DNA from: a virus
DNA length: 64,000 nt
IMG/VR virus record: IMGVR_UViG_3300008108_000034
Span: 1 to 64,000 of that record
Strand: one strand, 5' to 3'
In this document: positions 15,239-52,500 of the stretch, piece after piece
Numbering within the stretch: the stretch's first letter is position 1
How the letters are laid out: every line of letters begins with the position of its first letter
Notes under the pieces: model-generated
What the model saw: only the letters and a program-made list of their open reading frames with translations
Told to the model about the DNA's origin: nothing
Databases searched by the model: none
Made by a program: the position numbers and the translations under genes

Positions 15239-15254
15239 CACCAATTTCACGCAT

Positions 15255-20533: not shown

Positions 20534-20724
20534 GCAAGACAATTATTGATCGAGTGGTTGAACAAATCACCGATGACATATGTAACTACAACGATACAAC
20601 AGCACTGGAGGAACTTCTGGTGCTGTTGTATAATAAAAAGACGCACGAATATTTCAAAGGTTATCTTCCCGAGGAAGAATGGGGAGATTACGATAGTTTC
20701 TCTGATATAATAAGTTTCACGTAA
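20530..20724 (+). CDS. Small acidic hypothetical protein
   Basis: This 64-residue, mostly helical protein overlaps the polymerase stop by ATGA and precedes the MazG-like gene by 11 bases. No family is recognised. Position alone suggests a replication accessory. Confidence 0.6.
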   Translation: MSKTIIDRVVEQITDDICNYNDTTALEELLVLLYNKKTHEYFKGYLPEEEWGDYDSFSDIISFT

Positions 20725-20735
20725 AACAAAAAGAC

Positions 20736-21116: not shown

Positions 21117-21390
21117 ATCGACAACCGAATTGATCATCAAGGTCTGTGACGACCTGAAAGCCATGCTTTTGGACAAGAACATGAAGTATGGTGATTCCGT
21201 ACATCAATCGGGTCCGCTTTTCGACGTGGATCCTGTCATAGGAATCCAGTCAAGGATAAACGACAAGCTTCGCAGGATACAGAATGTCGGTATAAACAAC
21301 GATACTGAAGACAGTATAAATGATCTGATAGGATATCTCGTACACCTGAAGATCGCAATGCAGAAGAAAAGAGGAGTCCCCATCTTCTAA
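21055..21390 (+). CDS. DUF1599/Nmad1-like protein
   Basis: The 111-residue helical protein contains LKAMLLDKNMKYGDSV and IQSRINDKLRRIQN, then EDSINDLIGYLVHLKIA. This matches the DUF1599 (nucleotide modification associated domain 1) pattern, which is structurally related to MazG-like enzymes. A start at 21055 overlaps the MazG-like gene by 62 bases; an alternative ATG at 21100 gives a smaller overlap and keeps the domain. It is the last gene of the plus-strand replication block and probably acts on nucleotides. Confidence 0.7.
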   Translation: MSKTKYVITPQGKDYMESVTESTTELIIKVCDDLKAMLLDKNMKYGDSVHQSGPLFDVDPVIGIQSRINDKLRRIQNVGINNDTEDSINDLIGYLVHLKIAMQKKRGVPIF

Positions 21391-21397
21391 AATGGAA

Positions 21398-21426
21398 ACC
21401 CCCGCAGCCAAACCAACTGCGGGGGT
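21398..21426. terminator. Bidirectional terminator between convergent operons
   Basis: A perfect 10-bp GC-rich stem (ACCCCCGCAG at 21398-21407 with CTGCGGGGGT at 21417-21426) has a 9-base loop. It sits between the plus-strand replication block and the minus-strand tailspike gene. On the minus strand it is followed by TTTCCATTTT, the better U-rich side. On the plus strand no T run follows. Confidence 0.85.
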
Positions 21427-21451
21427 AACTCCAAACAAACAACCCAAACAA

Positions 21452-30857: not shown

Positions 30858-30997
30858 CTACCTTGTCCTCTATATGCTTTTTTATACAACTTGCTGGACT
30901 TCAGCTTACTAGACTTAGTCTTAGCATGAATACCAGGTCTATTGACCTCTTTCTTAACAACCGTCCTTACGGATTCTGATTTCTTAGGCTTTGCCAT
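30854..30997 (-). CDS. Tiny basic protein (47 aa)
   Basis: The 47-residue frame starts MAKPKKSESVRTVVKKEVNR and ends LYKKAYRGQGR, with 17 Lys or Arg residues and no long hydrophobic stretch. Its stop overlaps the start of the 512-residue gene (ATGA). It is another member of the basic peptide array. Confidence 0.5.
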   Translation of the reverse strand: MAKPKKSESVRTVVKKEVNRPGIHAKTKSSKLKSSKLYKKAYRGQGR

Positions 30998-31018
30998 ACA
31001 CTATAATATAAGCAAAAT

Positions 31019-31141
31019 TTATTTGAGAATCAACCACAAAACCAATGCTCCAATGGTCCAAATACACCAGTTGGGTACGCTTGGCAAATATGCATCGATT
31101 GATTCGTTGATTCCTGCGATAATGTCTTTGATGGTTTTCAT
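31019..31141 (-). CDS. Tiny single-pass membrane peptide (40 aa)
   Basis: ATG 31141, preceded by AAACAAAAACACATC, gives 40 residues: a helical start (MKTIKDIIAGINESID) and a C-terminal hydrophobic helix WCIWTIGALVLWLIL. It lies just after the 2271-residue gene in the late operon. It could be a small virion or host membrane component. No family is recognised. Confidence 0.5.
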   Translation of the reverse strand: MKTIKDIIAGINESIDAYLPSVPNWCIWTIGALVLWLILK

Positions 31142-31160
31142 GATGTGTTTTTGTTTAAGG

Positions 31161-34100
31161 TTAATATTTCTGTTTTGCCTGTTCCTTAGCTCTAAAGTAA
31201 GGATCATACATGTCTATTATGTTTGAGAAACCAGTGATGTCCTGGAAATTCTTTATCACTTTGGCATCACCCTTTTGCTGGTGACCTGCATTACGCTGGT
31301 AAAATCCGTTTTCATAAGCACCTTCGTCACCTGTAAGGTTGTAGTTTATATACCATAATCCATTTGTCATGAGGGAACCCATGGTTTTGACCTCTTTGAA
31401 TGCTGTTGTAAACTGTCCAAACTGATCTATGTAATCCAGAGGTTTACCTACGATTGGAACAGGAACCATTGAACGTGTTTCGTTTGTGGTCTTTATCAAC
31501 GCTCGGTATAACTGAAGTTCACCCCATGAAAGATCATCACGGTCTTCATCATAAATCATGGCTCGCAACATCATGTACAAATGATATCCAAGATATGCCA
31601 GTAAGACTTCTCTTGCTGTCTGTGCAGCTTTCGCACGATATGGATCGGATGTCTCAATACCTGTGTTTATTGATTTCTTCAACTTGTCAGATCCAAGTGC
31701 CGACAGTCCTGGAAAAGAAAGGATTCCATCCAGTAAAAAGGTCTTTGCACCCTTCTTGAATCCATGATACTGGAAGAATCTCCATGTACCTACCCACCAT
31801 CCCATGTAAGCTTCTTCGGTACTCCATCCATAAGAGGATCCTACACCCTTATAGGTGTCTGAGAATGCTCCTTGGAAACGTGCGGATATTGCTGGAATAA
31901 GGTATTTACGGTAATACTCAAACAGCGATCCCCAGATGGTGCTTCCGAACTTACTCTTGGTAGCTTGGGAATAGTTACCTTGGAATCTGTAGATCTCAGT
32001 AAGTATCAAAACCTTGAGGTCCTCAACCTCGCGTTCGGAAAGATTCACGTCTTCCCTGATGTGTATGGAATTGTTCTTGAGTTTGAAGGCTTCCATTCCA
32101 TTGACCATCACGGTTGATCCGTCAGCGTTCTTCTTCAGCTTTTTGGTTCCGTTTTCCATGATGACATTTCCATCAGGATCTGTCTCAAACACTTCATACC
32201 TGCGATTCACAAGTATCATGAGCGCAGTAGTCACACCTATTTCCACCTCACCTTTGTCCTGGATTATCATCGCAAGGTCACCCACATTAAACACCCTGTT
32301 TGCCAACCTGCGTGCTTTACCTGCGGTATTGGCATCCATCACCCTGTCAAGATTCTTGGCAAGCGGATTCAGAAAACGAATAAGTTTTGTCTCAAAACTT
32401 GCATCTGATATCTTTCCCCAATCAGCAAGCATTGCAGGAAAGAACTTACCATACAGGAGTTTCTTAGCTGTGAAATAATCAGCTTCAGTGGCATGTCTGC
32501 TTGCGGATGTCGATAGGAAACCCTGGATGTTACCAGATAGAAGGTTACCTACCTGCATACTTGCGTCAAATGCCATACGACCCCATGCTCCAATCTGCAT
32601 GAGAATCCTCATGTTCTTACGGTTCAGTACGGTTTTGCTCTCGTCAGTGCTCTTTTCATATATCTGACCGAATACGAACTTGTCGCGATTGAATTTGATC
32701 TGTTCAATTATGGTCCGCAATTTGTTTGCGTTATTCAGCGACTCCGTTGTCCCTTTATCGACAAGCTCCTTGTATCGACCTTCCAGGTAATTCAAACTGC
32801 TTGACATGTATATGTCTAGGAAAGTCAATTGCTTGTTCAGGTAAAATCCAGCATTCCAATTCACAATCGCTTCGATTCCATTGGTGGTGGTAAGTTCAGC
32901 AGCCATGGGATAGTTCTCCTTGAAGAGAATCTTCATGTTTCCAGCCATACCGGATTCGTTTGTCGCCTTTTCAAACTCACTACCTGCGTAGTGAACCTCC
33001 TGCGCTTTTTCCTGTATCTCTCTTGCGACACCTGTCATTCCTTTGGTGACCAGGTTGTCAAATCCGAGTTGTTGTACGTTGGGGAAACGGAATCCCAGCG
33101 GTGTTCCTGAAGCCTCCCGTTGTTTCAAAAGGAAATTCTCCACAATCCATTTTGAATAAAACTCCTTCGTCTTGGGATTAGCCAGGATCTGCATGAATTT
33201 CGGATTCACATATTCACCTTTTGGATTTGTGATATCGAACATGTTGGTATCCTTGTTGAACCTTATGCCTTTAGGCATAGGATAAAAACCCCTACCGTAT
33301 TTATTCTTCACAAATGAATCCTGGTAATCGGGATTGTACGCGGCGTCTTTGAGGATCTTGATCTTGTATTTCTTGTTTGGAACCATCTCCATCATGTTCG
33401 GATCAGATGGCATGTATGTGTAAAGATGCGATCTCCACTTTTCATTCAACGCTCCGCCTTTGGCAAGAGTGTCTTTTCCCACCACGTATTTGGTGTTGCT
33501 ATGCTTGTTGAAGAAAGTTGCAAACTCCTTCTCATGATTCATGTATTGTTTCTCAGCATCCGCTATCTGGTCAAGAAGTGTACGGTCAACCGTTGCAAGA
33601 TTGTCCCTTTTACGATTCAGTTCCTGCAGATAGTTGTACGACTTGATGACACGGTCACGGTGGTTGTTGAAATCCCTTGCGAAATCAGTGCGTAAAACCT
33701 TGGTACGCATGCTTGCAAGTTCTGAGAAAAGGTCATTGAGTTCCATTTTCTCATCATCAGTGAGCATGTCATCAGGTTCCATCCTGAGTTCCTCTTTTCT
33801 CAACTCAAGTTCATCCTCCAATGATTCGTATTCAGCTATCTCCTGCTCATTGAGAAACTTGTAATTGAATTTGCCTCTCACATAAGCTTTGGATCTCAGT
33901 TTATTCATACGTTCGCGTATGTCCTGCATCACAGGATCCTGTGACTTCAGTTCAGCGATTCTTTCAAATATCTCATTTACACGGTCAGTGTACTCTGCGG
34001 TGGGAGTCATGTCCGTATTGTTCATATCAAAACGTTCAAGAAGTTTTGCGTCTCCCTGGTTTCTTATGGCTGTACGTTTCTTCTCCCAAAGGTTATAGTT

Positions 34101-37100: not shown

Positions 37101-37976
37101 TGCAATGAACTCACTCTGTATTACAACGGTTGGATCGGAGATTCTCTTGTTGTTGCCATATGCGGTCTGAAGGTTCTTGAGCATCGCCTCGAAACGAGGA
37201 TCGTCCTTCAACATGTTGAAAAGACCCATGAACAGGGGTTTACGGTCCGTTCTGAGCATTTCAACAAACACGTGCATCACCTCTTCGATGGCATCCTCTG
37301 GTATGACACGACCTTCCACAAGATATATCTTGTTGTTTCGTACAAACGAACGGATGTTGTCCACATTCTCGTAATGCTCATCCTGTTTCAACTTGCCAGG
37401 TTTGACCCACTCATATGTCAAACCTTTGAACTTGGCAACTAGATTGTCCATTATGGGATTGACAATCCGTTTCTGCGCTTCAATCTCTTCCTTGGTGTAT
37501 CTTCTGAGACCTATCTCCTTGACAGCAGGAACGTATTTTATCTTGACTTTTCCCTGCATTGAATAGTTTCTTTCAAACTCAATCCGCATGTCGGGAAACT
37601 TCTTGCGTAATGCAGCTGCGAAACGCTTTGCCTTCTCCTCATTATGCCACGGTTCCTCTCCAGGTTGAAATTCATACCAATGGGAGAAATCATTGCGCAG
37701 TATCTTGGTCATGGCAGACCTTGTGTAGAAAACAGTGTCGATTGTGGGTTCACCGTTCTCATCCAATGGAATATGCGTTGTCCCGTTCTGCCAGTCTCCG
37801 TAACGTTGCTTGAACTTGTTGGTATAAGCTATTGACCATACCTGCAATGCTTTCCTGGGTTCTTGCGGAAACTCATTCAATGCCGCCTGATACAACTTGG
37901 AAGGTTGTCCATTGGGAGCATAGACATTTACAATTTCATCTGTCTGGGGATTCCTATCGAATGCACAAGATCTCAT
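31161..37976 (-). CDS. Giant virion protein with RecB-family nuclease and degenerate zincin
   Basis: The 2271-residue protein has several parts. Around residues 217-296 is a zincin-like segment in which the HExxH position reads EEVMH (231-235) and a later SEFIAKNLA (288-296) stands where a third ligand would be; the first His is lost. Residues 475-650 hold a full RecB/Cas4-type nuclease core: GNFYHYLLE (His485), EISIAVQD (Glu557), GRLDLMAV (Asp575), EVIDLKTK (Asp589, Lys591) and QLAVYSE (Gln641, Tyr645). Long helical, coiled-coil-like stretches fill the middle, and the last 400 residues are rich in aromatic and hydrophobic segments that could contact membrane. By position it matches the giant cargo proteins of crAss-like virions. 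The nuclease could act on host DNA, rival phage DNA or during ejection; this is inference. Confidence 0.8.
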   Translation of the reverse strand: MRSCAFDRNPQTDEIVNVYAPNGQPSKLYQAALNEFPQEPRKALQVWSIAYTNKFKQRYGDWQNGTTHIPLDENGEPTIDTVFYTRSAMTKILRNDFSHWYEFQPGEEPWHNEEKAKRFAAALRKKFPDMRIEFERNYSMQGKVKIKYVPAVKEIGLRRYTKEEIEAQKRIVNPIMDNLVAKFKGLTYEWVKPGKLKQDEHYENVDNIRSFVRNNKIYLVEGRVIPEDAIEEVMHVFVEMLRTDRKPLFMGLFNMLKDDPRFEAMLKNLQTAYGNNKRISDPTVVIQSEFIAKNLAIAMKNELSIAPEGRRSPLANLIQRFFDWLSKLLNMEKVDGKTTLATIAQTINIKGAYFDTPEVDPYLYYSATPDVEGANFNPEDREETQKLDPVNKKKTARELNIEKAEKEIEKIANMRKKLLSTTAFRKTAAQLEVIKKLEQNVKDKLEWLKGGGQTIGVTKYIGSEDTEMLDSFVAELGANFGNFYHYLLEELQEEYINTGKAPIIIMSDPAFFDNFFKKNERLIKFSDFDKDTLRNAALELAGQMSSILSDGKIILPEISIAVQDLNGNMVLGRLDLMAVDKNGNIEVIDLKTKSANKYPIGSFPMMAFTTKNFVKTFFKDGANYLFSQIKDRSALDKYHMQLAVYSEMLRKLNINVNGRTVWALAYKYDKNAEDPKDNKMIGYKIATFRDYDFFGQVDPADQPAMSNGIEMAARQSFRELDQMTDNTTLPGEGKMNPFASIDPSIQDMMLERFDELAKNQFEVIASDVRRISEDKKIPQEEREEKINMLKRRQQSLVSLRESIKKDFSSESSEAIRTAKALLIKTAFDVFTNEIEMIVERVKAIDVPKTFELGTPENQVALGLLQYYNRSLGGMSESIQMFGNTIQQMEDLDPQTKREISQMLHDMREGIAEVENKNGRVGRRVIIAIMKATVGTQSLKVFGEMSKLLEVELQYLEKQIQKMESGQLNPESMTYNALRRLKNLLGSDKPLNTTKLEDFKKRAEEIRQMIAIKQFDDKTIDMYLDGILNSGEHVFYMGSTVQGANGLITMDSIIGDNANSEAIVAAMWKYMYNITERSRVEMLRWAESLGIDKLKQDIIDSLGGITEANKFFSEEIEVDVYDENGNVTGTETVRVYADPAHSKFYKEHDNFTIALRTLNKKIDEINRKLNQGVEEAEAQTLRQERDKLNEQQRATYTAFTEWKIEKTNTILKPEVMRLQLQSGSQIAEISAIRDKISSIVKSVGSDAYLDDMQQEIIDDLESQMSRILQEIRDKDPQAMERYKELDEYYTFRLNYNLWEKKRTAIRNQGDAKLLERFDMNNTDMTPTAEYTDRVNEIFERIAELKSQDPVMQDIRERMNKLRSKAYVRGKFNYKFLNEQEIAEYESLEDELELRKEELRMEPDDMLTDDEKMELNDLFSELASMRTKVLRTDFARDFNNHRDRVIKSYNYLQELNRKRDNLATVDRTLLDQIADAEKQYMNHEKEFATFFNKHSNTKYVVGKDTLAKGGALNEKWRSHLYTYMPSDPNMMEMVPNKKYKIKILKDAAYNPDYQDSFVKNKYGRGFYPMPKGIRFNKDTNMFDITNPKGEYVNPKFMQILANPKTKEFYSKWIVENFLLKQREASGTPLGFRFPNVQQLGFDNLVTKGMTGVAREIQEKAQEVHYAGSEFEKATNESGMAGNMKILFKENYPMAAELTTTNGIEAIVNWNAGFYLNKQLTFLDIYMSSSLNYLEGRYKELVDKGTTESLNNANKLRTIIEQIKFNRDKFVFGQIYEKSTDESKTVLNRKNMRILMQIGAWGRMAFDASMQVGNLLSGNIQGFLSTSASRHATEADYFTAKKLLYGKFFPAMLADWGKISDASFETKLIRFLNPLAKNLDRVMDANTAGKARRLANRVFNVGDLAMIIQDKGEVEIGVTTALMILVNRRYEVFETDPDGNVIMENGTKKLKKNADGSTVMVNGMEAFKLKNNSIHIREDVNLSEREVEDLKVLILTEIYRFQGNYSQATKSKFGSTIWGSLFEYYRKYLIPAISARFQGAFSDTYKGVGSSYGWSTEEAYMGWWVGTWRFFQYHGFKKGAKTFLLDGILSFPGLSALGSDKLKKSINTGIETSDPYRAKAAQTAREVLLAYLGYHLYMMLRAMIYDEDRDDLSWGELQLYRALIKTTNETRSMVPVPIVGKPLDYIDQFGQFTTAFKEVKTMGSLMTNGLWYINYNLTGDEGAYENGFYQRNAGHQQKGDAKVIKNFQDITGFSNIIDMYDPYFRAKEQAKQKY

Positions 37977-37997: not shown

Positions 37998-40900
37998 TCA
38001 ACCACTAACACACCTGTTGTCTTCTTCATCTATCTGTCTGTTCATGTCCTCTATGGTAATATCATCATCCCTTTGAGTAAGCGGATCGGCAGGGATGTCG
38101 TTATTCTGTAGGTCATACACAAATATAGATTCTTTTCCTTTTACAAACCCTTCGAACTTAGGACTTTCAATCATCATCTGCCAATCCGCAAAACCGAAGA
38201 TATCAGCAAAGGAATCCAGACGTTCTTTGGGTATCTCATTTGCAATGTTCTTTGCATCAGGGAATTGCAGAAGTCTTCCATCGACAAACTGATACTTGTT
38301 CAGTCTGCTGTTGGTTTGCACCTTGCTGCCATCCATCCTGGTAAAGACTTTGTTCTTGTGATTTCCAGTAGGAACCGAGGAGACGCTGATCATATACATC
38401 TTGTTCTTCATCACACTTGCATTCCTGGGAAGATCTACCGATTTCATGATGGTTGTGGATTGCGCTCTTCCTTCAAGCATATTGGTGATTTGAGCACCTT
38501 CCTTCATGCTGAATGCCAAAGGTGATACGTGTTTGGAACCTTGTTTCACCACGACTTCATATTCAGCGGACATGCCTATCAAGTCAAGTGTGGGATCAAT
38601 CTCACTGTTTTCATTCTGTGCAAGCGTGCTTATGAAAGCTTCACCCAGGCTTTTTCCATCAATGGTCTTAAGGACCATCATCTGGTTGTACATGTTCACC
38701 CTATACAACGGGAATTTGTAACCTTCATTTGCTCTCAATATTCCTGACTCATACAACATTGTGTTGTAGAAGTTTTGTTTTTGAGAGTCCTTCTCAAGTT
38801 CAGGGATGCTTATGGTTAGTTTTCCTTCCTCATTGGGAGTGAACAGATCAAACTTGTCGCTTTTGACATTCACAGACGGTGCCCCAGGTATTGCAGGTCT
38901 TGAGATACCTTTAACACCTTCTTTGCTTTCAGAATACTTGACAATCAATCTGCTGTTGTCACCTGTCACTGTTTCAAAAAACTCAAGCATGGTTCTTCCC
39001 AGAAGTTTATCTTCCTGTTTTGAGAAATACTTTTTGTTTATCTTCTCCTGGTCTATTGTATTGACCATGGTGTTTTCCTCCATATCGTTCATCATCCTGT
39101 AACTTATGATCTTGGATATTGCTTCAGTGATGACGTCTCCAAGGTTCATGTTCCCAAAGTTGGAGGAGACTATCTTATTGAGTCTTTCCGCATATATCTC
39201 CTTGGCGCTGTCCGACATCTTGAAAACACCTGTACCTATAAGCTCTACAGTGTATTTACTTGGATTCTTTTTTGCCAACTTCAACATGTCATCATCAAGT
39301 TTTACAAGATCCTCTTGAAGATTCCATATAGCTTGAGCCATCGGTTGTGAGAGTTTTGCGGGGAGTATCTCGTAGAAACCACCTTCGGCGGATTGCGCAC
39401 CTGCTTTTATCATTCCATAGTAAGCGATCCTGTGCGCCTTTTCCTTGGTTACAGAATCACCTGTCATCAGATGCAAAAGATCCGCATAGGCTGCTTCACG
39501 TCCACTCGCACCAAGTCGAGAAGTAGCCATTTCAAGAACCCTGATGTTTTTGGTCCTACCTATCGATACCACCTTGATGGCTTTGAGAAACTCATTGTTG
39601 GGATACTGTCTCAGTAGATCATGGTAGTCTGATACGATCTGACCACTTAGGAAATTCTCAGGATCCAGCATTTCCATGTAAATCTGTGGTAACACATCCT
39701 CCTTTTGTTGTTCCATTGTCGCACGCTGCAACTGCAAACCTATGAATGCGTTTATGTCCTTTCTGATCTGCTGCTTGTCATATCCGTATATGTTTTCAAA
39801 CAACAGCATCAGACCTCTCATCATACTGGTGCGCTCGATCAACACCTTGTTTGAGACCTTGTCCATGTATTCAAGCGCTCTCATGTTTGCATCCAAAACA
39901 GGATATGTTGCGAAAAGCTTGGTCATGCTTTCTTTAGTAAAGAAGTTCATCTCCCCCTTTTTCGCTTTCCTGTATGTCGTTATCAACCTATCCATCCTGT
40001 CCATGTCAGGACGCAATGCTTTCATCGGATCTGTAAGAACCGATATATTGAAACTGATCTCATTTGCCAGTTCACTGTATTTCAAGAACTCATTGATTAT
40101 CACAAGATTCTCAATTTCACGGGATACAGAAACATTATTCTTGTCTGTGATCTTGTATCCGAAATTTGATATCGGAACAGTTTTGTCAATCACATCCTGA
40201 GGATCATCCTTTGAAACATCATCATTGAAGATTATCTTATAAGAAGTCTGATCAATAACGTAATCTTTCTTTACTAAAGTTGCATCAAGTTTTGTCCTTG
40301 CTTCTGAACTGTTTTCAAGAATGGAATTCATGTACTTTTTAAGGAAAGTGTTGAAACCCATCCTGCGTCTACGGTTTGTTCTTGAATACGTACTTCCATA
40401 GGTCTGATTGTATTCATTGACAACATCAACGATTATCGGTAAGGATTGGAACAAGATAGCCGCATTTTGGGGAACACCGATGCTGAGCATTGCCGCAAGT
40501 ATGGGGGTAGTCGTACTGTTGAGATGCAATGGTCCATGGTATGGAGTCTTCGGAGCATCCGCAAACATACCTATCAGTGCACCGACAAGCTGTACAGAAT
40601 CACTTACTATTTTATTGGTATTGACCTTTTGCAGTTTTCCACCTATCTCGGTATACATCGATGGACTCATCTGCTTGTTTATCTCAGCGCCAACTGTCAC
40701 AAGCATGCTCACACCTTTGTTGAATGAAGCGGCTATACCCAATGAATCCTTTGATTCGGAGTTCAATGACCTTGCAACGGCAAGAGCGGTTGGAGTATAC
40801 ACGTTTTGTCTGTTGTATATGTCCTTCTCTGTAAGACCTCTTCTTTTAACAAGTGTTGCAATCGGTGCGACAGCCTGATCCGCTGTCATTTTCTTGTCTG

Positions 40901-43900
40901 CAAGGAACCTTTCATACACGTTGGGATTAGACAAGATATTCATCTTGGCATCCAGAACCTTGTTCAGAATGACTTCCGTAACGGGATTGGACTTGGATTC
41001 TTTTTCATATGCTTCAAGCTCATCAGGTCTTGTTGGAAGATCCGAATCCTTCATTTTCTGCAGGACATTGTAAGTCGCTATCAGTCTGCGGAAGGTATCG
41101 ATCATCTGTTCATTTTCAAAGTTCTCAGTCTCTTCCAAGACAGAAGCGTTCTTTGTAAAATAATCATTGAGTTTTCCTCCAAACAATTCACCGAAGGCAT
41201 AAGCCTGTTCCTTTCTGTATCCGGCATCATCTTTTATCTTACGGATCTCATCACTGATGATGTCCGACATGATATCGTCACGACCAAGCGAAGTAAGGTA
41301 TTCTATGAACTTTGCTTCGTTTTGACTCATTCCATACTTCTCAATGTAATGCTTGTAGTTTCCATACGCTATCCTTGTGCCGTCAACGGCATAATAGGAT
41401 GAACGTATGTACGCATACAATGTATCAATGTCAAAGTCAGAACCTGAAAGCATGTGCATTTGGGATGGAACAATGATTCCCGAACCGTATGCTTCATCCA
41501 TGTAATCGACAACCTTGGCAATGAACATGGAACGTTTGTCTTCCGTAGGGATACGTGTCGCAAAAAACTTGCTCAAGTACTCCTCTACAAACTTCTGATC
41601 AACATTCTTAAGTTCCCTTGGTATGACAACTTCGACGGTATAAAGGTCCTTCTTGACCATCTTTCCATCCTCACCCCTCACCTCAATCTCCTCTTTTTCT
41701 ATGGTCAGATATCTGGATTTAGCGTTTCGGTAATCCTGAGGATTCCTCTTATAGTCCGCACGCTTTACAACCTTGCCATTCATCTCCATCACAGGATACA
41801 TGATCGGACTGACGTGGTAGTATTTCCTACCTTCCGTCTTCTTGTCAAATACATTCTTATTGAAGATGCTGAAGTAATAGTATACAAGTATGTTCGCAAG
41901 TCTCGGCATGCTTGGAGGGAAGATCGGTTTACCGCTCTTATCCACTTCAAAGTATTGCAACAGGGTTGCATCAGCTCCTTGATCGCGAAGACCCGCTCTG
42001 ATGTTGTCATACAGTTTGCCAACTATCTTCTCATCAGACGTGTTGAACATACGCATCATGCGTTTCACTTGTGAATCAACAGCTTCCGCAAGACCTTTCT
42101 GATAAGTTTCAATATCATCCTTTATCGCCTTGTACCTCTTGTCATTAGGATCCAACTGACTTATCAAAAGCAGTTTCTGTTGGATACCTGCTGTAATCCT
42201 ATTGGATATCTTGGAGGTACCTACCTGATTATAGGTAAGTTCATTGGGTATGTTGTCAAGTGACTTTTCCAGATCCAGATAAACTCCTGGAGCGGCATCG
42301 GTTATCATGTTATAATCCAACGGAGCCACGGTCGCACGTTTACTGGAATTCGTATCGTATACCTGTTCTATCCTATGGTACTCCATTGAGTTAAGCAGGT
42401 TGTGCAGGAATCCCCCCAATGGACCTTTTGTGGATGGTACGAAATACCCGTGTATGGCCGCCATGGTTTTCTTGTACAGTTCTGATATCGGAGTTGATTC
42501 GTTTGTCTCAGGATCCATCTCCATTTCATCAATCCCTGCTTCAAGCTGCATTGCATAGTAATCAGCAATATCATACAACTGTTCCAACTCCAGCATCGCT
42601 GTGTCATAATTGAGATCAGGACGCAACATGCTGACTTCCTTACGGATGAAAGTATGTTCGGATTGTTTGATGTATTGGAATGCAGCTGTTACGGATTTCA
42701 CACTGTTGAATACGATTCCGGCATCGCGCAATCTTCTGATTCCATCACGATATTGTCTTGTCGATCTTGTCTCATAACGCATCCTGCGCATGATCTGCAT
42801 GGATTCTGGATCAAGTTGACCTGCAGCTTCCGCCATACGCATTCGCCTATCGATTGTATTCAAGGACTGACCGTCAAACGCCTGAACAGCGGTGTTTCCA
42901 TCACCTTCATAAGGTGTAAGACTCAATGGTTTGGTAAGATCGTTCTTATCAATGTACATTACAAAGTCCTTCAGAACGGATGATCTATAAGTAGTCACAT
43001 CACCATACTGACTTCTGTTGGGATCATATATGTTGGAACCAGCTGCCGCACCTGACTTCTGACGTTTGTAGAAGTTTGCAAATGAGGAGATACCCACTGC
43101 AATAGGTCCATCGAATATCTGATTTACAAATATCGAATTGATCCAGTTGTTGAAGAAGAAGTTGCGTTTGAACTGTTCTGGAGAACCTGTTGTCGGAAGG
43201 TCCACATCAGTGAATACGGTTTCAAGTTGGCCTGCGTCATTTTTGATAGTTTCTTTTCCTATGCCGATTTCCTTTAGATAGGTCTCAAAACGATCGTATT
43301 GTTCTTCTGCAAATTCGGAAACCATATCCACAAGCGCAGCGGTGTTCTCAGGATCAGCGACAATGGAATCCCATGATTTATCCTGTTTCGCCATTTCCTC
43401 CAGCATTTTCCTGTTGGATATCCTGTTTGAAACGGTCTCATTTACATTGTCAGGATCCGCAGTCAAACCAAACATGTCTGCAAGGATGTTGAATGTGAAC
43501 CCTCTGTTCAGCTGACCTTTCTGATTAAACTCACTGTCATTATATCCTTCGTATCTTTTTACGGATTCATCGTTCAGTTCCCTGTGATTCTTACGCATCA
43601 GTTCATATTCCTGACGTATAACCTTCATCAGGTCAACCACATGCGATGCAAACTTTCCTACTTTGTTCTGTTTACCTGCAGCATCAAAGTACTCCTTATA
43701 GATGCCATCAACGACGATACTGGTACTTGTAGCCTCATACTGGGTAAGGATGCGTTTGAAAAGTTTTCTGGTGGTGTTTGTTCCTGGAATCGACACATCA
43801 CGCATGCTTTGGAAAAGTCCAAACATGGAGAGCATGAACGACTTTTCATCTATGCCTTTGAAACTGCTGGTGTCACCTTGTTTTTCATTTTGGAAGATGT

Positions 43901-46900
43901 TGTATTTCTGAGCGAATCCCGCAAAAGCTGAAACCTCCATGGTTTCAAGGAATGTCTTGACAACAGGATTGTTCATGTCAAGCATCGGATTGTTCATGAA
44001 ATATTCCTGGAATCCGTTGTAATACTCTGAAATAAGCGCATCAAGACCTCCTTCAATGTCCATCTTATCCGTATCAGGATCGGTCATTGATTGGAGTTTC
44101 ATGATCATCACATATGCAGGAGTCGGCTTTACATATTTGTGAACCAGGTTTCCATTGGCATCTCTGGTGACACTTCCTCCGATACGTGGATTGTATTTCA
44201 ATATAAAAGATCCGAGTGAACGAATGTATGCCTCGCGCAACCTTATGATGTCATTGTCAATCTGTATTCCACGTGCGGCATCGGTTTTTTCCTTTTCAGT
44301 CCTTGATGCCGCCTTTGTCATCACAGTTGGAATCTGTTTACTCCAGAACTCATAACTCAGGTTCTTTATTTCCTTCAACAGCGACTTGTTCATACGGAAC
44401 ATGTTGCGAAGGGTGCTGTCCGGACTGAAGTTGGAAGGATTTGAATCCGTTTTCAAATACATCTGCCAACCCAATGAAATCATGATTGCACTATACGGTA
44501 TGTTCAGATTGAATTTGGATATGGCAACATAGACGTCATCTATGAAGCTTTGGAATGCCGCATCATTGAACATCTCCTTCTGACTACCTGTGAAGAAAGC
44601 GTCCTTCAATGAAGCCGATGACTTGAATATGGTGGCTATCGACTTAAGCATGTTTATGCTCTCGATGATTTCCTCCTTGTCCAACGCCATTGTATTGATT
44701 CGTTCAGTGATTTCAGTACGGATGCGGTTTATGTCCGCTCCCACTACGATATCATCAACCCTGTATGTCTGCTCTTTCGCTTGCAGCTTTTCACCTTTTT
44801 CGGCTCCAAGTCTTGTTTCCGTCTTAACCTGCAACAAGTGTGCGTCAACGGTATTGAACACATCCTGGAACATGACCATGACATGTTTGTTTCTTACCGC
44901 AGCACCTGCTTCGGTTATGCCAGTGGTTGAAGCAAGGGTATTGTAGACACCCATCAAAGAGTCTCTCAATTCCAATGTCTGCGCAATATCATCAGGCATG
45001 TAGAAACCGTAATCCATCCTTGAAACAAGGACATTGTTGTAATGCGTGAGTATTGAATTGAGACGTGATATCTCCGTAAGTATGGCGGGAACGATTTCAG
45101 ACTTTGAAAGATTTGTTGTTATCTTCCTGATTGTGCTGAATATGAGTTTGCTGTCCACCATCTTGGTCCTTTTGACACCAAGTTGCGGATCAGTGTATTC
45201 ATAAGGAATGTATTTGAACAGCTTTCTGAAATATGAACTTCCTTCATATGGAGCCTTGTTTGCAAAACCGAGGTTGGCAAACTGTTGTCCTGACTCTTGT
45301 TCTTCATCTTCAACCTGGAAGTCCTGTTCCAAATCCTGAGTGTCATCGAAAGTGGATTCGTTATACACTTCCCTGAACTCGTCAAGCACATGGTTTTTGA
45401 ACTTCTGTGCGTTCTTTTGACTTATTTGTGTCTGGATCTTGCTGTTTATCACCAGACTGTCATTCGTTGAATCGTTGGTGTAATTCCTCCATGTGAAAGA
45501 CTCTGTGTTGCCGTCCTCTCCAGGAATGTGCATTGTTCCAAGCAACCAGCGGGCGTTTTCATAATGTGATCCATAACGCTCGATTATGCTTTGCTCCTGA
45601 TCAGGAAACTGTCTGATTAGATTCTCGATTTTGTAATCCTGCAACACACGCAATCTGGCAAGGTTGAACAACTGATTCATCTTCAGATCAGGATCGCTGT
45701 TCTCAACACGTATCTGCGCCATCGCATAGACCATCTTGTCACGGAGTTCCGAAGTGACATATGACGGTATTATCTGATTTCCGAACTTAGGCTGGTTTCC
45801 ATTGCCGAACGTTATGAATGGAATACTCTTGTAATCCATGCTGTAAACGGAATCGGTATCCTTTGTCGCATCCCTTAATGCGGTATTCCTGTATTTGCCA
45901 AGTGTGATGTCATAATAAAGGTTCTGTATGCGACCTTCCTTCTTGAACATGTTGATCATCTTCTTCAACCATGTGAAGAGTTTTTCCATCCATGTCTTGG
46001 GGACTTTGTTGGTCTCCATGAAGGATGCGAAACCGTCAGCGAGATACTCCTCGTATATCAGGTTCTTGATTTGCTCGTCTGTAAGGTGTCCATAGCTGCG
46101 ACGCTCCCTGAACTCGCTTGCATAAACCTTTTCACTACCTACCTGTATGTATTTACCCTTGCTATCTGTCTTGTAATCACCGAGAAGCTTACCCACTTCC
46201 TTCAGGTAGTACACCTGGTGTGCTGGACTAAGCAGTCTTCTGAATACTCCGTGGAACGCTTCATGGTATACGACACCTTTCACTCTCAAGGTTTCATTGA
46301 GGTATATGACGGTGTCTCGGTAATAACCCAGTACATGTCCATCGACATTCATTCCCTGAAGATCATCCTTCCTCACAAAGGAGAAGGCATCTGGAATAAG
46401 TGCGCTTATCACACGTATTTCCTCTGAACGGTCTTCTTCCGAAAGAGCCACAAAGCTTTCGACGTTTGTACCTAGTTTGAAGTTTGTGATATCCTCATCC
46501 TGGGATGTCTGGTCAAGATTGTTCCAATCTATCGCCGTACCTGCCGATGTCTTTTCATTGGATACGGTGGGATCGACAGAAGGAGTGGAATGATCCACGT
46601 CAACAACCTCAGCTGAGACATCATAATCCTTTCCCTTGGCGGGAGCAGCAGGTGCTTTTCTTTTGATGACAGGAATCACTATCCGCTTTGCAATGTCCCT
46701 TGGGGAAATCACAAGTTCATTGCGAGTTTGTATCTTCTTGGTGAAGAAGTTGTTACGGATATCCTCCTTTGCAATCCTTCTTTGAACTTTCAGTACTTTC
46801 CCATCAAACAACGCATAGTTCACAAATTCATCAGGGATGAGACCTGGAGAAACTCTTCCGTCATCACGAGCCTTTTGATAGTTGTTTATGATGTCATCAA

Positions 46901-49580
46901 ACCTTTTACGAATCGAATCTATAAAATTACTGTACTTGTCCCCAAGGGAACCTACCAAAGGATTGCTGAATCCAGCAAGTGATCCTGCTTCAGAAGCTAT
47001 TTGTCCTACACGCTCCATTGTCATGTCTGGAGTTATCTTGTCAAGACCGTAACCTGATACAATCTGGTTTGTCAATTCAAACATCTGATCGAGCTGCTCC
47101 GATTTGAAGACAATGTTCATGTTAGCCTTGGCGTAGGTGTTGAACCTTTCCACCACATCAGCAGGACGTCCTTCACCTTCAAGCATGACAAAACGGATTC
47201 CAAAGGTTTTCTTGTCACCTTGTTGTTTCAGGATGACTATCTCTGGACGAATCCCCATGTTCTTCATGACATCGAATCCCCAACCTTTGTCGTTGAAGTC
47301 GATCATCGCTCTGTTTCCTTTTTCAATGGATGCGTTGTTGAAAGCATGTTGCATGCTTGCAAAAAAGTCAACCAAGTCAGAAGGTGTATTGACATTCCTA
47401 CGGTACACCAATGGTATGACCCTTGGAATAAGTTGATCAGCCTTGCTGATGAAAGATATGTAAACCGAGTTGTTTGTGTTGAAGTTCTTCTTGACAAAAT
47501 CAATGATGTCAATGTTCAATGAATCCTTGATATAACGTTCAACAGTCATATAGGTGTTTCCATTGGCGTCAATGATCCTCTTACCAAAAGGTAATGTATT
47601 GACTATCTCCCACGTAGCTTTTGTTTTACGCATTACGATCGGAACCCTGTGTTCGGTAGCTATACCCACAGGATTTCCTTGAGCATCCACATCTTGAAGA
47701 GGTATGGCAAGACGTCCTTCATGAGCATCTATGAAATCCCCGAGGTTTTGAACCTGCTCATTGCCTTCATCCATCTTGGTTTCAACAACGGCATTGGACA
47801 AGTCATAATACCTGTAGAAGATATCCCTGATGTCAATGTTCTGGTTTCCTGTGGATGCGATTCGTTTAGCGACTTCCATTTCGAAAGCCTTGTATGTCCT
47901 GATCGCTGTACGAAGCTGATCGATCTCCTTGTCACCAACAGTATTCTCATATCGAAGAACCTGTTCTCCACCGAATGCATCCATGTAGGAATCATCCCTG
48001 TAATTGATCATGTTCTTCAGCATCTGAACATGCTCAGGATTTTCGATGTCCAGTTGTACAACCGTGTTGTTTGGATATACAAATGCAAGGTCGGTCAAAG
48101 GTGTAAGCTCAAAAGACATGTCTCCTTTGAAATTGCTGACCGATATGTTGAATCCGTACGGACGTCTTATGAAAGAAAGAACAGGATTGTTGTTGTTACC
48201 CTGTTCAAGAGCACTCATTTGTGCAGGAAGTTCTGTTGTCTCGAACATCCTGGATCCAAGAGTTGGAAACATCGCACGAATCCTGTTCAATCGATTCGCA
48301 TTCATGCGTGCCGTATCCGTAGTTGCAGTGATGCGTATGAAATTGTAGAATCTCTGGTCCACAGGCATCTGAGCGGCAATCATCTCACGTATGGTCTGCT
48401 CCGCACCTTCGATCTTCTCATTTCCCAGAATAAGTCCTGTGATAAGATTCTCCATCTTCATGCGAAGATTGAGTGTCTTCTTGTCAATATGTTCAGGATT
48501 GTCCTTCCTGTAAATAGCGGTTACTTGATCGCCAGGCAGTCTTTCAACCTCAGTACCTTCAAGAGTCCTGTATTTATTTGCAATAGTGGGATCATATATG
48601 ACTTCAATCTTGGTACCGTCAGCTCTTCTCAATACTTGAACGGAACGTCCTGAAACCATGCCGATGCCTTCCGCATTGCTGAGTCTGACATAGTCCTTTC
48701 CAAACTCACGCGTCTCGGTGATTGCAGTTATTGCAGAATCCAGAAAGTCAAGTGTCGTTGTCTTCATGCTTGACTCAGGACGTCTTCTGATCGTATCCTG
48801 CATGCTTTTAAGATAACTCAAAACGACGGATCCTTCAGCACCTGAAGCAAATGCTTCAAGTTCCGATGAGTTCTCCTCTATCATATTGACAAGAGTCATC
48901 GTTGTGGACGCAAGTGACACATCGGATACGGTTTCGAGGTCTGCTATTTCATCACTTATTATTTCATCAAGTGTGGTGGATTTTTCAGTTTTTATTTCGG
49001 ATTCAACAGGTAGATTCAATTCCTCACCACCAGTGTATTCAACCTCAGGTAGTGATACTGTTTCAGATTTTCCACCGAGGTATCCTTTCTCTTCCCACAA
49101 ACGTTCATCTCTTTCCTGCTCCCTCAAGTCATCAAGCTCACGTCTGAGCGCCTCAGCTTCAAAAGGATCAGTCAGCACTGCTTCCTTGAATGCACTGTTC
49201 TTCTCCGCAATCTGTCCAACAGTTGTCTTTGTTGAAGGAGCGGGAGTCTCAGCGCGTTTTGGAAAGAATGCCTTTATCTGTTCTACAATCGCATCATAAT
49301 CAAAATCCTTGTCGCCATTCAAAAAAGGTTTCAGGTAGTTGTTCAACTTGGCATATACTCGGCTTTTCCACTCAGGTGTCTGGAGTCTGGTGATCTGAAA
49401 TGCTGCGGTATCTACAAATCCTGCATAAAACCATACGGCATGTATCTTGGACTCAGGAGCAATTGGTTGGTTCAGGACATCCTGTATGACAGCGGAAAGG
49501 TTCTTATACTTTTCAAAGTCATGCCTGTAAGCCTGATACAATGCATCTTCTAGATTGGATGAAGGAATCTGACAGCTCAT
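37998..49580 (-). CDS. Giant virion RNA polymerase with zincin protease domain
   Basis: The 3860-residue protein carries the DFDID motif (Asp2715, Asp2717, Asp2719), the metal-binding signature of crAss-like virion RNA polymerases such as phi14:2 gp66. About 40 residues earlier RIPTEDKRS (from Arg2676) mirrors the RxPT segment that precedes the catalytic loop in cellular beta-prime. Further upstream, GVVYHEAFHGVF gives a zincin HExxH (His1106, Glu1107, His1110), with EEYLADGF (Glu1177/1178) as likely third ligand. The rest is long, mainly helical sequence without clear domains. Polymerase and protease in one polypeptide suggest a protein packaged with the DNA that transcribes early genes after entry. 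The protease could process virion cargo. It abuts the 1656-residue gene with no gap. Confidence 0.9.
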   Translation of the reverse strand: MSCQIPSSNLEDALYQAYRHDFEKYKNLSAVIQDVLNQPIAPESKIHAVWFYAGFVDTAAFQITRLQTPEWKSRVYAKLNNYLKPFLNGDKDFDYDAIVEQIKAFFPKRAETPAPSTKTTVGQIAEKNSAFKEAVLTDPFEAEALRRELDDLREQERDERLWEEKGYLGGKSETVSLPEVEYTGGEELNLPVESEIKTEKSTTLDEIISDEIADLETVSDVSLASTTMTLVNMIEENSSELEAFASGAEGSVVLSYLKSMQDTIRRRPESSMKTTTLDFLDSAITAITETREFGKDYVRLSNAEGIGMVSGRSVQVLRRADGTKIEVIYDPTIANKYRTLEGTEVERLPGDQVTAIYRKDNPEHIDKKTLNLRMKMENLITGLILGNEKIEGAEQTIREMIAAQMPVDQRFYNFIRITATTDTARMNANRLNRIRAMFPTLGSRMFETTELPAQMSALEQGNNNNPVLSFIRRPYGFNISVSNFKGDMSFELTPLTDLAFVYPNNTVVQLDIENPEHVQMLKNMINYRDDSYMDAFGGEQVLRYENTVGDKEIDQLRTAIRTYKAFEMEVAKRIASTGNQNIDIRDIFYRYYDLSNAVVETKMDEGNEQVQNLGDFIDAHEGRLAIPLQDVDAQGNPVGIATEHRVPIVMRKTKATWEIVNTLPFGKRIIDANGNTYMTVERYIKDSLNIDIIDFVKKNFNTNNSVYISFISKADQLIPRVIPLVYRRNVNTPSDLVDFFASMQHAFNNASIEKGNRAMIDFNDKGWGFDVMKNMGIRPEIVILKQQGDKKTFGIRFVMLEGEGRPADVVERFNTYAKANMNIVFKSEQLDQMFELTNQIVSGYGLDKITPDMTMERVGQIASEAGSLAGFSNPLVGSLGDKYSNFIDSIRKRFDDIINNYQKARDDGRVSPGLIPDEFVNYALFDGKVLKVQRRIAKEDIRNNFFTKKIQTRNELVISPRDIAKRIVIPVIKRKAPAAPAKGKDYDVSAEVVDVDHSTPSVDPTVSNEKTSAGTAIDWNNLDQTSQDEDITNFKLGTNVESFVALSEEDRSEEIRVISALIPDAFSFVRKDDLQGMNVDGHVLGYYRDTVIYLNETLRVKGVVYHEAFHGVFRRLLSPAHQVYYLKEVGKLLGDYKTDSKGKYIQVGSEKVYASEFRERRSYGHLTDEQIKNLIYEEYLADGFASFMETNKVPKTWMEKLFTWLKKMINMFKKEGRIQNLYYDITLGKYRNTALRDATKDTDSVYSMDYKSIPFITFGNGNQPKFGNQIIPSYVTSELRDKMVYAMAQIRVENSDPDLKMNQLFNLARLRVLQDYKIENLIRQFPDQEQSIIERYGSHYENARWLLGTMHIPGEDGNTESFTWRNYTNDSTNDSLVINSKIQTQISQKNAQKFKNHVLDEFREVYNESTFDDTQDLEQDFQVEDEEQESGQQFANLGFANKAPYEGSSYFRKLFKYIPYEYTDPQLGVKRTKMVDSKLIFSTIRKITTNLSKSEIVPAILTEISRLNSILTHYNNVLVSRMDYGFYMPDDIAQTLELRDSLMGVYNTLASTTGITEAGAAVRNKHVMVMFQDVFNTVDAHLLQVKTETRLGAEKGEKLQAKEQTYRVDDIVVGADINRIRTEITERINTMALDKEEIIESINMLKSIATIFKSSASLKDAFFTGSQKEMFNDAAFQSFIDDVYVAISKFNLNIPYSAIMISLGWQMYLKTDSNPSNFSPDSTLRNMFRMNKSLLKEIKNLSYEFWSKQIPTVMTKAASRTEKEKTDAARGIQIDNDIIRLREAYIRSLGSFILKYNPRIGGSVTRDANGNLVHKYVKPTPAYVMIMKLQSMTDPDTDKMDIEGGLDALISEYYNGFQEYFMNNPMLDMNNPVVKTFLETMEVSAFAGFAQKYNIFQNEKQGDTSSFKGIDEKSFMLSMFGLFQSMRDVSIPGTNTTRKLFKRILTQYEATSTSIVVDGIYKEYFDAAGKQNKVGKFASHVVDLMKVIRQEYELMRKNHRELNDESVKRYEGYNDSEFNQKGQLNRGFTFNILADMFGLTADPDNVNETVSNRISNRKMLEEMAKQDKSWDSIVADPENTAALVDMVSEFAEEQYDRFETYLKEIGIGKETIKNDAGQLETVFTDVDLPTTGSPEQFKRNFFFNNWINSIFVNQIFDGPIAVGISSFANFYKRQKSGAAAGSNIYDPNRSQYGDVTTYRSSVLKDFVMYIDKNDLTKPLSLTPYEGDGNTAVQAFDGQSLNTIDRRMRMAEAAGQLDPESMQIMRRMRYETRSTRQYRDGIRRLRDAGIVFNSVKSVTAAFQYIKQSEHTFIRKEVSMLRPDLNYDTAMLELEQLYDIADYYAMQLEAGIDEMEMDPETNESTPISELYKKTMAAIHGYFVPSTKGPLGGFLHNLLNSMEYHRIEQVYDTNSSKRATVAPLDYNMITDAAPGVYLDLEKSLDNIPNELTYNQVGTSKISNRITAGIQQKLLLISQLDPNDKRYKAIKDDIETYQKGLAEAVDSQVKRMMRMFNTSDEKIVGKLYDNIRAGLRDQGADATLLQYFEVDKSGKPIFPPSMPRLANILVYYYFSIFNKNVFDKKTEGRKYYHVSPIMYPVMEMNGKVVKRADYKRNPQDYRNAKSRYLTIEKEEIEVRGEDGKMVKKDLYTVEVVIPRELKNVDQKFVEEYLSKFFATRIPTEDKRSMFIAKVVDYMDEAYGSGIIVPSQMHMLSGSDFDIDTLYAYIRSSYYAVDGTRIAYGNYKHYIEKYGMSQNEAKFIEYLTSLGRDDIMSDIISDEIRKIKDDAGYRKEQAYAFGELFGGKLNDYFTKNASVLEETENFENEQMIDTFRRLIATYNVLQKMKDSDLPTRPDELEAYEKESKSNPVTEVILNKVLDAKMNILSNPNVYERFLADKKMTADQAVAPIATLVKRRGLTEKDIYNRQNVYTPTALAVARSLNSESKDSLGIAASFNKGVSMLVTVGAEINKQMSPSMYTEIGGKLQKVNTNKIVSDSVQLVGALIGMFADAPKTPYHGPLHLNSTTTPILAAMLSIGVPQNAAILFQSLPIIVDVVNEYNQTYGSTYSRTNRRRRMGFNTFLKKYMNSILENSSEARTKLDATLVKKDYVIDQTSYKIIFNDDVSKDDPQDVIDKTVPISNFGYKITDKNNVSVSREIENLVIINEFLKYSELANEISFNISVLTDPMKALRPDMDRMDRLITTYRKAKKGEMNFFTKESMTKLFATYPVLDANMRALEYMDKVSNKVLIERTSMMRGLMLLFENIYGYDKQQIRKDINAFIGLQLQRATMEQQKEDVLPQIYMEMLDPENFLSGQIVSDYHDLLRQYPNNEFLKAIKVVSIGRTKNIRVLEMATSRLGASGREAAYADLLHLMTGDSVTKEKAHRIAYYGMIKAGAQSAEGGFYEILPAKLSQPMAQAIWNLQEDLVKLDDDMLKLAKKNPSKYTVELIGTGVFKMSDSAKEIYAERLNKIVSSNFGNMNLGDVITEAISKIISYRMMNDMEENTMVNTIDQEKINKKYFSKQEDKLLGRTMLEFFETVTGDNSRLIVKYSESKEGVKGISRPAIPGAPSVNVKSDKFDLFTPNEEGKLTISIPELEKDSQKQNFYNTMLYESGILRANEGYKFPLYRVNMYNQMMVLKTIDGKSLGEAFISTLAQNENSEIDPTLDLIGMSAEYEVVVKQGSKHVSPLAFSMKEGAQITNMLEGRAQSTTIMKSVDLPRNASVMKNKMYMISVSSVPTGNHKNKVFTRMDGSKVQTNSRLNKYQFVDGRLLQFPDAKNIANEIPKERLDSFADIFGFADWQMMIESPKFEGFVKGKESIFVYDLQNNDIPADPLTQRDDDITIEDMNRQIDEEDNRCVSG

Positions 49581-52500
49581 TTATTCGCAGTATGTTGAAT
49601 TTGAATTAAGTGATGAGAAGGGATTCACGTTAGGATCCCTTAATAATGTTGAATCGGAATTTCTGATTGAATCCTGTATTCTGGATATCTTCCTGACTCC
49701 AATCTTGTTGATTTTCTTGGTGTCATTACGCAAGGAAACCTTTTGTACTTTATCAGCGGTGACACCTTCCCTTTGGGATCTTGCAGCCTTCTTGCGTTTT
49801 TTCTCAGCGGTCTTTTCAACCTGGTCTATTGCTTCGGCAACTGACTTTCTCTTTCTACCTTTTTTTGTTGCAGGCTCTCCTTGTACTGTTTCAGCACCTG
49901 GTTTGCGTTTTCCGGACTTATCAGCTTTAGCAGACTTTTCAGCTCGTTCCTTTTTCGTAGTATTTCTACGCGTAGCTGTTCTTTGTTTTTGTCCTCTTGT
50001 TCCATCTTTCTTATCCTGTTCAGTTAAAAGTTGGTCTATTGGATTTATATACTCCTTTGTCAGCTGGGTAAGATACCCGTTTACAATAGGATTGTTGATG
50101 TATATGCTCCAGTTTTTCTTAATACTCTTACGCAAGTCGCTTGCCCACAATGCAAGTTCAACAAGCTCATCCTGAGTCATTTGGGAACGTGTCTCTGGAT
50201 TACCAAATTTAGTTCTTAATAATGTAATATTTTCAGGAGTATTGACATTTATTATCTTGTTCAGTTTGAACTGATCAACAATCTCCCTTCTTGTACGTTG
50301 TTCTACACTTTCGGTTTCAATGATATTGTCGACAGCCGCAATCGCCTGATCAAGAATATCACTCATTTCCTGCATTTCTTCAATACTTTCAGGAATATCA
50401 GCCATTGTAAGCTGCAAATGAGAGTTCACAAGTGCGGCATACTGCTGAGCTTTTCTTTCAGATGCTGTACGGTATCCGACATATTTAGCCTCTTGTTTTG
50501 GTCCATATGTCAAATCGTATGGTTCGGCAAGCTTCAAACGCTCACGCACCATACGTGTTTTGTTTCCTTTCTTGCGTTCGTAATCCCTTACAAATCCTGT
50601 AATCTCACCTTTGTCATTATACTCAATATTCCATACTACACCGTTTATGATTATTGACTTGACACTCTTCACACCATCCTCAACATCAACTACGTAATCA
50701 ATGGTCATTTCACCGCTCTCAGTTGATTCTACGACTGGATTGGAAGTCGGAGAAATCAATTCCTTGTCTTCCTCAGGTAGTAACGGATATGCGGGACTTA
50801 TGTCAGTGTAGTCATTGAACGATGATTCCTCGTTTGAATCGGGTAACTCGGTGCGTGTTCCATCAGGATATTCCACATAGAAACCACCGTCTTCATTCAT
50901 CTGAAGGGTACCTGTGTTTCCTGCAACTACAACAGTGTTGCCGACGTGATTGGCAAGTTTCGCCTTTTCATCGTCAATCTGTTCTGTCTTTTCATCAGTC
51001 TGCTGGCTGGTAGGAGTTTCCCTTAGACTGACATCATAGTTCATTTGTTCACGAATCTTCAAGTATTCCTTGAGGATCTCCATGTTGTCAATAGGAACAA
51101 GTTCACCTGTCTGATACAGATCATACTCCGTATGGACTGTGATCTGTTTTTCAAAAGCAATTCTTGTACCATCAGGATGCAGGTAATACCTGGTGACCTT
51201 TCTTTGACTCAAGTCTGTACTTTCAAAAGGGAAGTTGTTTGCAAGATCTTCAAAATCATAGCGCATTGCCATGTATTCCTCGGCTTGCTGTAGCGTATCG
51301 GGATTATTATAAAGCTCTTCTATGTTCACAGGACTCTTGGACTGGAGTATCCTCTCTTGTTTAATCCTTTCTTCCGTCTTTTTTTTATCTTGCTCTACTT
51401 GTTCTGCAAAAATTTCCTGAAGTTTACCAAGCACCAGTTCATCCTTCTTTTTTACAACTTCGTCCATTATCTTCTGGAGCTTGCTGTAATTGTTGTATGT
51501 ACCGTAAGGAGTTTTGCTGAAGGCAAGAAGGTCGTCCATCAGTTTTTTAACCTCAGGGGTCTCTATGAAATTCTTACCGACCTCGCTGATTTTACCCATC
51601 TCCTGGTAGTCCTCATAAAGACGTCTGGCATGCGCTCCCGCGCGCGCATCCATGATGTTCTCGTAATACTTTGTGAAGTTGTCAGGATCACTCAATAGAT
51701 TGACCGCCTGTATGTATTCATTGTGATCGCGTCCAAGAGTGACATAATCATATATGTCATTCAAGGCATCCCTCACTTCTTGCTGGTTTACCGCGGTGTT
51801 TATACCGTTTTGTCGGTTCTTTATCTCAAGGTATTCCGAAAGCACGCTGGCAGCACTGTCCATTTCGGATTTCACCCTGGTTTTCTTTGGTACAGTGTAT
51901 CTGATGATTTTGGTCGCATCATTCGGATCCTCCTCTTCGACAACCTCATACATGTCCTTTTCCATGGTTTCAAGAAGCTCTTTCTCACGCTTCTTGTCTT
52001 TGATCATCTCAAGTACACGCGGACTCTTGTCAGTGCCTTCTTCCAGTGTCTTTATCTCGTTGTTCAATACAAGCATGTTATCCCGTATCTCATCAGGACT
52101 GATGATGGTGTTGAACGAGGATGAAAGACTGTTACCGATACTGGGTAATGAGCTTAACCTGCGGAGTATCTCCTCACTTCTAATGGTGGATTGCTGACCT
52201 TTTGCCTCGGCGAAAGCGACTGTTGTGATGGCATCCATCAACGCCGCTTTCCTGATGCTGTACTTCATCCTTCCCGCATCGTCACCCATGTATTGGTCCA
52301 GACTGAGCATCAAACCGTATTTTGTCTGATACTTGTCATACAGATCGCTGTATCTTTTGACATTTCCAGCAATCTCATCCATCACTTCCTTGGGTGATGA
52401 TTTCCCAAGGTCTTGCGGTGAGTAGCCAAATGCTTCCTGGAACTCCGTTGGACTGAAGTTGTCACCATAACCATTCAGGAACTCTGTCATGTAATCCATC

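Follow-up and report, generated by a model that had tools for sequence, protein, structure and literature searches.

A crAss-like virion RNA polymerase and a probable zinc protease in one predicted chain, within a gene block with cysteines at its junctions

The window analysed here (64,000 bases, positions 1 to 64,000 of the 79,319-base virus record IMGVR_UViG_3300008108_000034; the same phage is also present as IMGVR_UViG_3300008448_000069) contains a reading frame, P0001, that starts with ATG and runs without interruption on the minus strand. The original prediction read it as a polymerase and a metalloprotease fused in one virion protein, which may cut itself or its partners and thereby pass through the tail. 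The locus raises the question of what kind of polymerase and protease this chain represents, how so large a protein is delivered, and whether proteolysis has a part in it.

The polymerase motifs (RIPT, DFDID) and the zincin motifs (HEAFH, EEYLADGF) were found in the one 3860-residue ORF exactly where they had been placed (Table 1), and the protein is homologous to the C-terminus of gp47 plus gp50 of phage crAss001 (hhalign). Single-sequence searches of Pfam, PHROG and PDB with P0001 gave nothing useful, and related loci were therefore needed. Exact-word scans of IMG/VR returned only the same phage; a six-member alignment recovered at least 80 IMG/VR loci. Alignments were made of 57 non-redundant chains, the rows being selected on HExxH.

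Table 1. P0001 and its neighbours in the window, with predicted domains, motifs and cysteines
Feature	Position in window	Strand	Remarks
P0004	54560..57394	-	944 aa; next gene upstream; zero Cys; outside the Cys-flanked chain
P0003	49581..54551	-	1656 aa; matches N-terminal part of single-chain relatives
P0003 Cys1655, sole Cys	49587-49589	-	
P0001	37998..49580	-	3860 aa; N-terminal region, zincin and crAss-type virion RNAP catalytic subunit predicted in a single chain
P0001 Cys3	49572..49574	-	junction P0003/P0001, downstream side
Zincin-like metallopeptidase domain, aa 1050-1237	45870..46433	-	matches crAss001 gp47 2098-2297 (hhalign E 9e-14)
HEAFH, residues 1106-1110	46251..46265	-	predicted zinc ligands and general base Glu1107
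EEYLADGF, residues 1177-1184	46029..46052	-	predicted third zinc ligand, second helix
Virion RNAP region, aa 1436-3422	39315..45275	-	matches crAss001 gp50 295-2183 (hhalign E 7e-57)
RIPT, residues 2676-2679	41544..41555	-	R and P invariant
DFDID, residues 2715-2719	41424..41438	-	predicted metal-binding DxDxD of beta'-like barrel
P0001 Cys3857, only other Cys	38010..38012	-	junction P0001/P0002, upstream side; Cys in 54/57 rows
P0002	31161..37976	-	2271 aa; PD-(D/E)XK domain aa 477-598 and gp49-like C-terminal half aa 1585-2253
P0002 Cys4, sole Cys, N-terminal	37965-37967	-	

Polymerase and zincin parts of the chain

A tblastn search with residues 2000-3000 matched 102 phage records, with E values as low as 1e-14; most are crAss-like, and several are annotated as RNAP catalytic subunit. 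The double-psi beta-barrel RNAP of the original prediction was confirmed by a 41-sequence profile of residues 2100-3060, which finds the virion RNAP of phage phi14:2 (PDB 6vr4_A; E 3e-49), and by an AF2 model of 961 residues (pLDDT 82), which matches the same structure with a Foldseek probability of 1.00 (E 5e-18); Pfam searches of all 41 RNAP rows gave scattered chance matches only. In the 57 non-redundant chains, D2715, D2717, D2719, R2676 and P2678 are invariant, as are K2295, K2305 and K2414, which precede the DxDxD. As far as sequence and predicted fold go, we consider it settled that the polymerase of P0001 is a crAss-like virion RNAP of the phi14:2 gp66 type, with the DxDxD and both barrels on a single chain.

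The gene block lies downstream of tail genes and includes a gp49-like partner. For crAss001 (gp47, gp49, gp50) and phi14:2 (g065-g067), the corresponding proteins were detected in virions by mass spectrometry (PMC6235969, PMC10172136). By homology with these two phages, P0001 would be present in the virion and would transcribe early genes; its designation as a virion protein is one by homology.

For the zincin part, an HExxH was found upstream of the DxDxD in 65/65 relatives whose chain reaches the region, for a chance expectation of 0.012 per 2000 aa. The 100% occurrence of HExxH in the alignment of 57 chains is not independent, because these chains were selected on it; E1177, E1178 and F1184, on which the rows were not selected, also stand at 100%. 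The motifs are not chance occurrences, and HEAFH and EEYLADGF were rightly taken as marks of a zincin. The core of the AF2 model (pLDDT >90) consists of a helix, three strands, the HExxH helix and a Glu helix, and a helix/strand/HExxH-helix/Glu-helix order is expected of zincins (PMC5512222). Compared with the PDB, the model gave a best E of 0.44, which is non-significant, the first six matches being mostly zincin-type or HExxH proteins; its BFVD matches are crAss-like giant zincin proteins (probability 1.00), and a weaker one carries the name 'RNAP associated protein fused to zincin protease'. The zincin profile gave chance matches only against the PDB, and Pfam on all 41 zincin rows scattered chance matches only. 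From the motifs and the model, it is probable that P0001 also bears a zinc protease.

The retained general base, Glu1107, leads us to infer peptidase activity for the zincin. That the fold serves as a structural zinc site or scaffold only, with no peptidase activity, appears doubtful: the literature found does not describe an activity of crAss-like zincins, but the general base, which is dispensable for zinc binding, is invariant, and is kept even where its flanks have changed (HENTH, HEQLH, HESLH, HEGVH). Six loci (L040, L047, L050, L055, L069, L091) encode one more HExxH domain (TPFHEFAHP ... EEA), situated close to the C-terminus of the main chain at residue ~4180-4630; some chains therefore have one zincin on either side of the RNAP.

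The gene block and the cysteines at its junctions

The proteins next to P0001 match the remaining parts of the known crAss-like set. P0002 aligned with gp49 (hhalign E 1.7e-43) and with the PD-(D/E)XK region of gp47 (E 6e-9), and its PD-(D/E)XK domain is also found by Pfam (PF12705, E 8.5e-5); P0003 aligned with the N-terminal part of single-chain relatives of 4400-5100 aa (hmmsearch E to 8e-130, hhalign 7e-120). By these sequence matches, P0003 (gp47-like N-terminal part), P0001 and P0002 (PD-(D/E)XK and gp49) form one ordered block. The same block is split into two to four chains, with cut points differing among phages; in Kehishuvirus and Intestiviridae the zincin is at the end of a separate protein (gp47/gp45), and the DxDxD lies ~1430-1740 residues into the catalytic protein.

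In a tree of the RNAP core, the window belongs to a clade (19 uncultured phages, support 1.0) whose members all have the P0003/P0001 split, beside a large clade with P0003 and P0001 as one chain; the zincin-RNAP fusion is therefore common. A fusion unique to this phage was rejected, since more than 60 relatives share it. Being common in uncultured relatives, the fusion is a variant and no new kind of system; taken alone, it is a variant domain arrangement of an already known virion polymerase.

Two other features of the window were recorded. A putative tail fibre protein (P0008, 21452-23653, minus strand) has a C-terminal run of ~19-residue repeats (ALGNSAALNNTG-like). ARAGORN reported a tRNA at 8469-8540 (plus strand) with anticodon tta, which would read TAA and which is absent from Rfam at the gathering threshold; it is possibly spurious, or possibly a suppressor tRNA.

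The interiors of the block proteins are nearly free of cysteine, and the cysteines are concentrated at the junctions: the upstream protein ends in ...C(x0-4), the next one starts with M(x1-3)C, and the outer ends of the block are without Cys. The only two cysteines of P0001 are residues 3 and 3857 of 3860; the neighbours of Cys3857 are poorly conserved in the alignment of 57 chains. In 80 IMG/VR loci among the matches listed, a Cys is present in the last 10 residues of the main ORF in 71 of 74 cases, and in the first 6 residues of the next ORF in 70 of 72. Cysteine density in the interiors is 0.2-0.3 per 1000 aa, whereas other ORFs have 2.5 (loci among the matches listed). For 122 distinct adjacent same-strand pairs among these matches, both members carry the Cys in 84, neither in 29, and one only in 9; the association (Fisher p 7e-19; 5e-10 without the pairs headed by the main ORF) is to be read as optimistic, because related phages were treated as independent. 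In two loci with four-protein blocks (L022, L101), the rule holds at every cut.

The rule extends to the phages with characterised virions. In phi14:2, g067 has C1797 of 1797 residues, g066 has C3 and C2179 of 2180, and g065 has C3. The proteins gp47 (C2339), gp50 (C5 and C2404) and gp49 (C5) of crAss001 fit as well, though gp47 is encoded on the strand opposite to gp50 and gp49; because gp47 fits from the other strand, an artefact of operon structure, stop-start overlap or reading frame is excluded. All 14 reference blocks fit (14/14), two of them after correction of the start codon. In a later set of 31 new loci, from bacterial and archaeal genome assemblies scanned after the rule had been fixed, 20 of 23 junctions fit (hand count), and the three misses are all in two atypical loci (L118, L129). 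Some interior Cys are present in the catalytic chains of Intestiviridae, and fused relatives are mostly without Cys at the fused position.

Several apparent exceptions were examined and dismissed: L056, L082, crAss002 gp33 and cr110 gp40 are start-codon misannotations, in L060 the Cys lies just beyond the counting window, and in L039 and L065 endonuclease-like ORFs are inserted. For crAss002 gp33 (L010) and cr110_1 gp40 (L098), the annotated starts are probably too far upstream, and an internal ATG gives the MSC start of the relatives. No earlier description of terminal cysteines or disulfides in crAss cargo was found in the open-access literature, and the rule is undescribed as far as the searches show.

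Two side observations concern single loci. The epsilon group has been reported to be without an RNAP block (PMC7886860). In csAssE-Sib of this group (L011), Cys-tagged ORFs were found at 12739-22247 and 30424-31269: one protein of 2208 aa ends in Cys, another of 752 aa has Cys close to either terminus, and an ORF of 281 aa begins with MTSTC; they suggest that the rule extends to the epsilon group. In the genome assembly of the bacterium Spirosoma oryzae DSM 28354 (L117; contig NZ_PVTE01000009.1), a crAss-type RNAP ORF of 3356 aa without HExxH is followed by a 1512-aa ORF, with Cys at both sides of the junction; this locus may be a prophage or an episome.

Readings of the cysteines and of the zincin

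The explanation we favour, and regard as somewhat probable in its entirety, is that P0001 is a crAss-like RNAP and zincin chain that belongs to a cysteine-tethered, ordered cargo, and whose zincin is active after entry. P0003, P0001 and P0002 would be stored in the head and would leave it through the tail in a partly unfolded state; the three proteins would be joined end to end via their terminal cysteines, most simply by disulfides, and the tether would fix the exit order and a 1:1:1 ratio. The reducing host cytoplasm would free the proteins, which would refold, and the polymerase would start early transcription. In a gene fusion, the peptide bond would do the job of the bridge, the cysteines there being mostly lost. 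The tail of crAss001 contains inter-subunit disulfides, and has constrictions under 50 Å that require partial unfolding (PMC10172136). The general form of this proposal, i.e. that Crassvirales load the virion RNAP as a head-to-tail, Cys-bridged train that passes the tail as one chain and is reduced apart in the host cytoplasm, with gene fusion replacing a bridge, is offered tentatively, as a possibility with nearly balanced chances. It counts against a tether that disulfides are not expected in the reducing cytoplasm, where virions assemble.

The cysteines might instead be packaging or docking signals, binding for example the portal or other cargo, with no links between neighbours. In favour, every one of these proteins is packaged, and packaging signals commonly take the form of short terminal tags. 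The tags, however, occur only where an end faces another protein of the block, the first proteins having no N-terminal Cys, the last ones no C-terminal Cys and the middle ones both, and fused relatives are mostly without Cys at the fused position; a general-purpose tag would not follow the cuts, which makes this reading unlikely. Less probable still is that the cysteines serve in the host rather than in ejection, by providing subunit contacts or metal ligands when the refolded polymerase assembles. Since the proteins belong to, or associate with, one polymerase, their adjacent ends may be neighbours in the complex, but with one Cys per end a junction offers no more than two ligands, the cytoplasm is reducing, and the rule also holds at cuts inside the gp47-like and gp49-like parts, at positions that vary by clade.

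The original prediction proposed self-cleavage, with the zincin cutting the chain that carries it or partner proteins at virion maturation or entry, and with fragments passing the tail. In its favour, large polyvalent proteins of phages have been proposed to be processed by the zincins they contain (PMC5512222), the Glu of the active site is invariant, and the zincin domain is located at the border of the gp47-like and gp50-like parts. Against this stands that gp47, gp49 and gp50 of crAss001 were recovered from a reducing gel with large bands (~150, 270 and >300 kDa, against predicted 154.5, 262.5 and 276.9 kDa; the band-to-protein key is absent from the paper's text). The zincin also persists where gp47 and gp50 are separate genes, and thus freeing a fused polymerase cannot be its sole job; in the phi14:2 trio, the sole HExxH is in g065, and a cleavage-like motif after the zincin domain was not found in the conservation profile. 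On balance we judge this proposal improbable to about the same degree as the packaging signal, and cleavage inside the virion unlikely. The claim that the protein cuts itself or its partners during maturation therefore finds no support in the large crAss001 bands and in the zincin of unfused phages, and for tail passage the sequence evidence points, in place of cleavage, to a Cys-flanked, ordered chain of nearly Cys-free proteins. Under the tethered-cargo explanation, the zincin would act after entry, on a host or cargo protein, and not in virion maturation.

The cysteine-junction rule covers the most abundant human gut viruses, and bears on the question of how enzymes of hundreds of kilodaltons get through a channel of <50 Å in the right order and ratio; if the tether is true, it would represent a principle of protein delivery and a design idea for injected cargo.

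Comparison with known systems

The closest structural reference is gp66 of phi14:2 (PDB 6VR4) with g065 and g067, which has the same RNAP fold, DxDxD, gp49-like partner and terminal-Cys pattern; gp66 (2180 aa) is without HExxH, and P0001 adds the zincin and about 1000 further N-terminal residues. In crAss001/Kehishuvirus, all domains of P0001 and P0002 are present in gp47, gp50 and gp49 (zincin, PD-(D/E)XK, DxDxD, gp49), but zincin and PD-(D/E)XK are both on gp47, whereas in the window the zincin lies ahead of the RNAP, and PD-(D/E)XK comes after it as part of P0002. In Carjivirus (p-crAssphage), too, the genes for zincin (gp45, 'RNAP associated protein fused to zincin protease') and RNAP (gp44) are neighbours; it differs from P0001 in that the zincin is in a separate gene and gp50 is fused to gp49. 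The separate form of the zincin has thus already been annotated, in Carjivirus gp45 and as 'ZnMc_tr' in Rudgehvirus.

Pipoluvirus cr108_1 (NC_055878) has zincin and RNAP in one reading frame, like P0001, but unlike P0001 a group I intron interrupts its DxDxD codons. This intron (L008, 20376-20694; Rfam RF00028, 80 bits) splits the RNAP gene at AGSD/YDID, and the NC_055878 record annotates the intron-split gene as two separate hypothetical proteins.

Outside the crAss-like phages, the N4-like vRNAP (N4 gp50) resembles P0001 as a giant ejected RNAP with a C-terminal HExxH domain; it is a T7-like single-subunit polymerase, whereas the polymerase of P0001 matches 6VR4, with a DxDxD double-psi barrel. 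N4 gp50 has zero cysteines in 3500 residues and the N4 ejection proteins are likewise Cys-free, so that scarcity of Cys may be general for ejected giants and the terminal pairs would be what is special here. The polyvalent proteins of Iyer et al. (2017) carry several unrelated enzyme domains per host-delivered phage protein; P0001 has two predicted enzyme domains in one chain.
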